A DNA stretch of 64,000 nucleotides, from NCBI RefSeq assembly GCF_030406045.1, contig NZ_CP128988.1:62001-126000 (forward strand). The letters are read 5' to 3'. The stretch is from Thiohalobacter sp. IOR34 (GTDB taxonomy: Bacteria; Pseudomonadota; Gammaproteobacteria; Thiohalobacterales; Thiohalobacteraceae). The first letter of the stretch is position 1; each line of letters opens with the position of its first letter. Made by a program: the position numbers and the translations under genes. The notes under the pieces are model-generated. The model made no database searches. It was not told where the DNA came from and worked only from the letters and a program-made list of their open reading frames with translations. Shown piece by piece: positions 46,861 to 51,237 of the stretch.

Positions 46861-46876
46861 TGGCACGTCGCTTGCA
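46861..46876 (+). promoter_or_regulatory. Sigma-54 promoter (-24/-12)
   Basis: TGGCACG-TCGC-TTGCA matches the RpoN consensus TGGCACG-N4-TTGC(A/T) at every defined base. The GG and GC dinucleotides are at 46862-46863 and 46874-46875, with the required 10-bp spacing. Transcription would start near 46887. Such promoters need an enhancer-binding activator. No enhancer site could be recognised upstream. Confidence 0.8.
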
Positions 46877-46886
46877 ACCCATCCGG

Positions 46887-47205
46887 ACAGGCGCAGCGAA
46901 ACCGGGGCTAAAGGATGTCGGGAATCGGTCGCTAGCCTAAGCAAGAGGACGCGCTGTTGAGTCCACTGTGGCATGAGTCCGGTAGGGCCTGAACCCAAAA
47001 TTCCGAACCGTGCCTGGCCACTGACGACGTGGTGTGCAGATCCGCATGACGGAACTCCTGAAGCGTCGCGTAGCCTAAAAGGTGAGTACCCAGGTTCAAG
47101 CCAGCGGGCTCATGCCACAGTTGACCGAAGCAGTTGGGTCCAAGATCGACTCCTCCGACGCTGAAAAGCGTTTTCACCCCGCCTTTTTCTGGCGGGGTTT
47201 TTTTT
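46887..47205 (+). ncRNA. Candidate sigma-54-dependent structured RNA
   Basis: Predicted ~319-nt transcript between the BASS gene and the FCSD-like flavoprotein. A 21-bp helix with one mismatch and one G-U pair joins 46961-46981 to 47105-47125. A second helix of 10 bp with one mismatch (46986-46995 with 47093-47102) continues it almost without a gap, giving a rod of about 30 bp. An inner UUCCG/CGGAA pairing and a CCAC/GUGG hairpin are also possible. An 8-base motif, TAGCCTAA, occurs at 46933 and 47071. No convincing reading frame is present. The transcript may be a free small RNA or a long leader of the next gene. Confidence 0.6.
47162..47205 (+). terminator. Strong intrinsic terminator with a preceding mini-hairpin
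   Basis: CCCCGCC (47177-47183) pairs perfectly with GGCGGGG (47191-47197), followed by eight T. A second small hairpin, TGAAAA-GCG-TTTTCA (47162-47176), abuts it. It is one of the clearest Rho-independent terminators in the window. It lies 94 bp before the flavoprotein start, and could either end the RNA or act as an attenuator. Confidence 0.9.

Positions 47206-50646: not shown

Positions 50647-51237
<591 letters not shown>

Follow-up and report, generated by a model that had tools for sequence, protein, structure and literature searches.

The RNA gene and its two promoters

The window, which is the whole 64,000-nt stretch of DNA analysed in this study, holds a real and conserved non-coding RNA gene at 46887-47205 (+), composed of tandem sigma54 and sigma28 promoters, a rod derived from 6S RNA and an sRNA-like tail. 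A sigma54 promoter, a rod and a terminator had been described here in the initial annotation, and all three were located where it had put them. The sigma28-type promoter, the 3' module (present in other families even where the rod is missing) and the hemB-to-hemF neighbourhood are additional to that description. The predicted RNA 46887-47205 folds better than all shuffles (z = -3.5), and the fold from the sigma28 start, 46942-47205, likewise beats every shuffle (z = -5.4). No credible ORF lies inside, as originally stated: the 63-aa ORF from ATG 46973 is unconserved, and the equivalent start in L002 runs into a stop after six codons. A protein-coding reading was dropped, since there is no conserved frame.

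The upstream element is a sigma54 (-24/-12) promoter, TGGCAC-GTCGC-TTGCA, at 46861-46876 (+), with a predicted start near 46887. Its description as a textbook RpoN promoter is borne out by 11/11 agreement with the -24/-12 consensus and by conservation in related genomes, where the element is kept at the correct spacing, as in sigma54-dependent sRNAs, and scores 9-11/11 in the other genomes of family f1 and in the f81 orthologues. Some orthologues (f153, f84 and f44) carry no recognisable sigma54 element; the sigma28 element is present in f153. The 5' leader of the sigma54 transcript (46887-46960, +) holds the second promoter and is otherwise poorly conserved (alignment A2). This second promoter, TAAAGGAT-N11-GTCGCTAG at 46909-46935 (+), lies inside the sigma54 transcript, has a predicted start near 46942, and shows the sigma28/FliA layout when compared with the E. 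coli consensus. The window's element agrees with that consensus at 11/16 positions; nearly all module-bearing sequences compared reach 10-15/16 with a constant N11 spacer, and shuffles mostly peak at 8-10. As in FliA-dependent sRNAs, the element (11/16 in the window) resembles the flagellar promoters of the host itself, its flagellin promoters reading TAAAGTCT-N11-GCCGCTAG and TCAAGTTC..GCCGTTAG, and the cheY- and cheV-like genes of the host are also preceded by sigma28-type elements. Taken alone, the sigma28 pattern is enriched about twofold over the control in the host genome (11 vs 5). The two promoter elements are both maintained and their spacing is fixed, the distance between them being 30-33 nt in f1, f2, f46 and f147 and 41-44 nt in f81; in the f1 member L006 the gap is readable as 25 or 30 nt.

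The rod and its relation to 6S RNA

The 6S-like rod domain (46961-47125, +) is delimited by a covariance-model match, by RF00013 matches in relatives and by covariation. Its closing stem pairs 46961-46981 with 47105-47125 over 21 positions with one C.U mismatch and one G-U, exactly as first described; in a model-fitted alignment 95.9% of its cells are paired and 15/21 pairs show two-sided changes. Helix 2 (46986-46995 with 47093-47102), bordering the central bubble, is also present, although the ten clean pairs claimed for it proved to be nine pairs and one C.A mismatch. Here 85% of cells are paired, with two-sided changes in five of the six modelled pairs, and the GGUUCA of the 3' arm corresponds to the 3'-bubble GGUUCAAG of 6S RNA. 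The apical arm (47015-47076, +) bears the conserved 6S signature GGUGUGCAG..CCGC....CGGA..CCUGAAG and occupies the position of the '-35'-like arm of 6S.

Among 13 rods aligned with MAFFT, two-sided changes were found in 18 of 44 pairs and 94% of cells were paired, a figure that falls to 25-43% when the partners are slid by 1-3 columns. An alignment of 15 rods, fitted to the structure itself, gave two-sided changes in 30/46 pairs. In both cases 0/500 shuffles match; the initial annotation had judged long-range pairing of this quality unlikely by chance. Closing stem, central bubble and apical arm are thus kept by covariation, as in 6S RNA, and a homology search in relatives, as the initial annotation had proposed, and a covariation count find the RNA both conserved and covarying. 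The closing-stem core (46970-46980/47106-47116, GGCAUGAGUCC/GGACUCAUGCC) hardly varies although pairing would permit change, and something may read this sequence; the small hairpin of f153 bears CTGTGRCATGRGTCC, which is similar to it.

6S RNA is a growth-phase decoy of the housekeeping polymerase. An Rfam search of the window at the gathering threshold and at relaxed E-values returned no family, with weak matches to the tail only, in line with the initial report of no known family match. That report holds for the sigma54-type promoter before a conserved structured RNA but fails for the family, since covariance models applied in both directions identify the rod (46961-47125) as a diverged 6S RNA. 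Plain cmscan, which had been suggested as a check, is silent because the rod scores below the Rfam gathering threshold: RF00013 requires 46.4 bits, gives no match in the window and gives 32.5-35.6 bits for the rods of relatives.

The model built from the rods (R1) was run over 369 genomes of the class and returned rods together with canonical 6S genes across Gammaproteobacteria, the latter being confirmed at 61-142 bits by R2, a model of 20 canonical 6S RNAs from which rods were excluded. At the retrieved 6S loci that were read, the frame downstream on the same strand resembles 5-formyltetrahydrofolate cyclo-ligase. R1 alone was insufficient, as it gives 44.7 bits to the window rod read in reverse complement; its E-values were accordingly not accepted at face value, and the reverse direction was tested with RF00013 and R2. 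Against the 64-kb window R2 gave one significant match, 46962-47125 end to end (R2 1-184; 25.7 bits, E 3.7e-5), a homology in sequence and structure to canonical 6S along its full length. All 12 rods of relatives were matched on the forward strand only (E 2.7e-8 to 0.0075). Two orthologues at great distance, L190 (E 2.2e-9) and L198 (E 3.3e-8), were matched by R2 as well. RF00013, searched over 24 genomes, found 6S above the cut-off in 22, host included, and its second match in G002, G006 and G009 was the rod, full length and on the correct strand (E 1.7e-5 to 9e-5). With a sequence-only HMM of 6S, 12 rods outrank all 3800 shuffles; the window's own rod was not found by this HMM. The homology claim stands on these three lines, R2, RF00013 and the HMM. 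By eye, the apical arm of the window (GGTGTGCAGATCCGC-ATGACGGAACTCCTGAAG) is nearly identical to that of the host 6S (GGTGTGCATGACCGCGATGACGGTAAGCCTGAAG).

It is very improbable that the initial view of a sigma54-driven regulatory RNA unlike any known kind is correct and that the resemblance of the rod to 6S arose by chance. Such a reading would accommodate a rod below the gathering threshold, and the R1 score of the reverse complement indicates that hairpins inflate scores; it does not account for forward-strand, end-to-end matches of R2 and RF00013 in independent genomes, for a signal in a model without structure, or for an apical sequence so close to that of the host 6S.

We identify the rod as a second, diverged copy of 6S RNA. 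Tree building groups the rods in a single clade, separate from canonical 6S, and the canonical 6S of the host lies elsewhere (G000:C1:406838-407020; RF00013 84.6 bits), followed by a frame resembling 5-formyl-THF cyclo-ligase. The window RNA is flanked instead by a bile-acid-type symporter gene and an FCSD-like gene. Of the 3'-bubble release hairpin of 6S (CUUGAACC/GGUUCAAG), the window retains GGUUCAAG, modelled as paired with the 5' strand, and a possible remnant of about 4 bp only. Because the hairpin has shrunk to this size, function may differ or be lost, and since GGUUCA is used in helix 2, pRNA release may differ from that of canonical 6S. In the distant orthologues L101 and L191 a hairpin at the 3'-bubble position is apparently kept, by eye. 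We have kept the rod outside RF00013 because its score falls short of the cut-off, its neighbouring genes are not the usual ones and a clear release hairpin is missing. In comparison with 6S RNA (SsrS, RF00013), it shares the rod with closing stem, central bubble and apical arm, the near-identical apical signature and a full-length covariance-model match both ways; it differs in its score, in lying away from the formyl-THF cyclo-ligase gene, and in its 21-bp closing stem (one C.U mismatch) and reduced 3'-bubble hairpin. The window RNA as a whole differs further in its sigma54/sigma28 promoters, its fused 3' tail and the presence of a canonical 6S in the same host.

Distribution, synteny and the 3' module

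Ten further genomes from the host's family were searched and nine gave a homologue, the exception being G008 (570 contigs); orthologues were found in about 12 families. Nearly all loci with the 3' module have hemB, mlaC and a bile-acid-type symporter on one side of the RNA and rubredoxin reductase/rubredoxin/rubrerythrin/hemF on the other. Long forms with the 6S domain at this hemB-hemF locus are found in f1, f84 (L012) and f156 (L101), and 6S-like rods upstream of the module also in f44, f46, f147 and probably f100. The module is retained in f153 with only a small hairpin in place of the rod. In f81 (Thiogranum type) a short RNA occupies the hemB locus and the rod lies elsewhere behind its own sigma54 promoter (short RNA/rod pairs L013/L011, L023/L015 and L038/L054); the separate rod gene L054 still bears the 3' module. 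The simplest reading of this pattern is that an ancestral two-part RNA would have shrunk in one lineage and been divided between two genes in another. The gene is conserved and syntenic, with covarying structure, homology to 6S and promoters at fixed spacing, and we regard it as highly probable that it encodes a two-part RNA of 6S ancestry, preceded by promoters of the sigma54 and sigma28 types.

Several features of individual loci were recorded. L011 (G090), L015 (G214) and L054 (Thiogranum MASpbin.12) each have their own sigma54 promoter TGGCATCAGCNTTGC; a convergent EF-hand-like gene ends right next to the L011 rod, and the L015 rod lies directly upstream of a short lipoprotein-like ORF. 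The very diverged L101 (G165:C11:187873-188040) has sigma54 and sigma28 elements, a 6S-like rod and the CUCCUCC module, and shares the hemF neighbourhood of the window although it belongs to another family. The hemF-like ORF of the window (50647-51204, -; 185 aa) matches only positions 150-295 of PF01218, whereas the hemF frames of relatives are full length (320-350 aa); inspected by eye, it seems to have lost an internal segment in frame, so that the HemF N-terminus is fused to the C-terminal half.

An untranslated region, an attenuator or a mobile inverted repeat, in place of an RNA gene, is the least probable of the readings considered. The L015 rod does stand directly before a short ORF and the rod is a long inverted repeat, but the RNA has its own promoters and terminator, fixed synteny, neighbour genes varying in type and strand, and one full copy per f1 genome. 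Plasmid and viral scans found no copy, and a mobile inverted repeat was ruled out by single copy, synteny and covariation.

The 3' module consists of CUCCUCC (47150-47156, +), the hairpin GACGCU-GAAA-AGCGUU (47157-47172, +) and an intrinsic terminator (47177-47205, +), and these nearly invariant elements are the most conserved part of the RNA. CUCCUCC is predicted to be unpaired in the folds, is complementary to a GGAGGAG Shine-Dalgarno sequence and is invariant in alignment A10; stem changes in the hairpin are compensated in distant families. The terminator (CCCCGCC/GGCGGGG and a T-run), conserved in A10, is very strong, as originally described. The short forms without the 6S domain imply that the tail can act without the rod. 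A target search of the host genome with GGAGGAGTC gave 20 sites, compared with 16 when the motif was reversed as a control, with no flagellar start-site match and no clear target. Matches to the module model R3 below about 40 bits were treated as terminator noise. One such match in the host, L168 (G000:C1:2335442-2335520, -; 35.4 bits), lacks good sigma54 or sigma28 elements and reads GTGTGACTCCTCC followed by a hairpin and terminator; it is possibly a sibling sRNA sharing the seed. GGA motifs seen by eye in the leaders of the Thiogranum short forms gave rise to the idea of a CsrA sponge.

An alternative that we consider possible but unlikely is a base-pairing sRNA acting in trans whose function resides entirely in the CUCCUCC tail, the 6S-derived rod having lost its polymerase binding and serving only as a stabilising scaffold. 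The tail is the best conserved part and survives rod-less at the f81 hemB locus and in f153, and the 6S release hairpin is reduced in the window's family. The apical arm, however, is nearly invariant in loop and stem nucleotides, exceeding what a scaffold needs, and the f81 rod persists at a separate locus behind its own sigma54 promoter, tail-less in 2/3 cases.

FliA is present in the genomes bearing the RNA, as required of a sigma28-dependent sRNA: 24/24 inspected genomes with a 3' module at >=40 bits encode it, against 208/369 (56%) of the sample (P 5.7e-7 if independent; about 0.001 counting the 12 families once). G077, also above 40 bits, has FliA and stands outside the 24, its locus not having been properly inspected.

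Proposed function and comparison with known RNAs

We assign a probability of roughly 0.6 to the reading that a 6S-derived decoy and a base-pairing tail have been placed behind sigma54/sigma28 promoters and tied to the flagellar programme. Production of the RNA would coincide with an active flagellar cascade (sigma54, then sigma28). Its rod would mimic an open promoter and use the conserved '-35'-like apical arm to occupy RNA polymerase holoenzyme, with the outcome that sigma70 transcription is damped or a competing holoenzyme modulated, and the CUCCUCC tail would pair with GGAGGAG-type ribosome-binding sites. Thiogranum-type genomes would apparently have divided the two jobs between two genes. 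In E. coli 6S the '-35'-like contact lies on the apical arm, and truncating the arm abolishes binding (PMC8876501). From the diverged 6S copy and tail behind these promoters it follows that bacteria may couple a polymerase decoy to swimming.

A more specific version is offered tentatively: a dual-function 6S under flagellar control in which the arm and the altered bubble would retune the trapped holoenzyme, for example as Esigma28 feedback or as a trap lacking pRNA release, and the tail would repress mRNAs at the Shine-Dalgarno sequence, the functions being split in some lineages. Turning of the 6S-like domain to Esigma28 or Esigma54, as a negative-feedback decoy of its own sigma factor, seems improbable. 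The sigma-specific promoters, the retained apical arm facing sigma region 4 and the bubble altered relative to canonical 6S speak for it, but sigma54 lacks the region-4/-35 contact of the sigma70 family. If the flagellar decoy reading is right, a conserved 6S paralogue links sigma-factor competition to the motility programme and illustrates how a ubiquitous RNA can be recruited, then lengthened and eventually divided; the cultured relative Thiohalobacter thiocyanaticus offers a direct test of whether alternative sigma factors are served by 6S relatives.

Second 6S RNAs are known, such as L. pneumophila 6S2 (PMC3048289), which has a strong Rfam match (E 2.5e-15), and B. subtilis 6S-2 (PMC4211561). 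These share with the present case a second, differently expressed 6S beside the ordinary one; sigma54/sigma28 control or a fused tail was not found described in those two papers, and searches of the open-access literature found no 6S relative with sigma54 or sigma28 promoters or with a fused sRNA tail. Among flagellar RNAs, sigma28-dependent sRNAs are known in E. coli (PMC10578931), and C. jejuni has FliA- and RpoN-dependent sRNAs, CJnc170 with the RpoN-dependent CJnc230 (PMC11187230). These resemble the window RNA in their place in the flagellar cascade under RpoN or FliA control, and differ in having no 6S domain, single promoters of these classes and, in several cases, an origin from UTRs or mRNAs. 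GlmY/GlmZ, CrcZ and Qrr have a sigma54 promoter in common with it; the window RNA has no Rfam match to any of them.

The tail shares a CU-rich stretch and a terminator with the Burkholderia anti-hemB RNA (RF02837, named for hemB; ncS04) and toxic sRNA (RF02278), which differ in having no rod (anti-hemB literature: PMC5688073, PMC3521395). Its matches are weak (RF02837 E 2.2e-4, RF02278 E 3.6e-3) and far below the gathering scores, 27.8 bits, much of it from the terminator, against 49.5 bits for RF02837. The anti-hemB RNA may be a distant relative of the tail.
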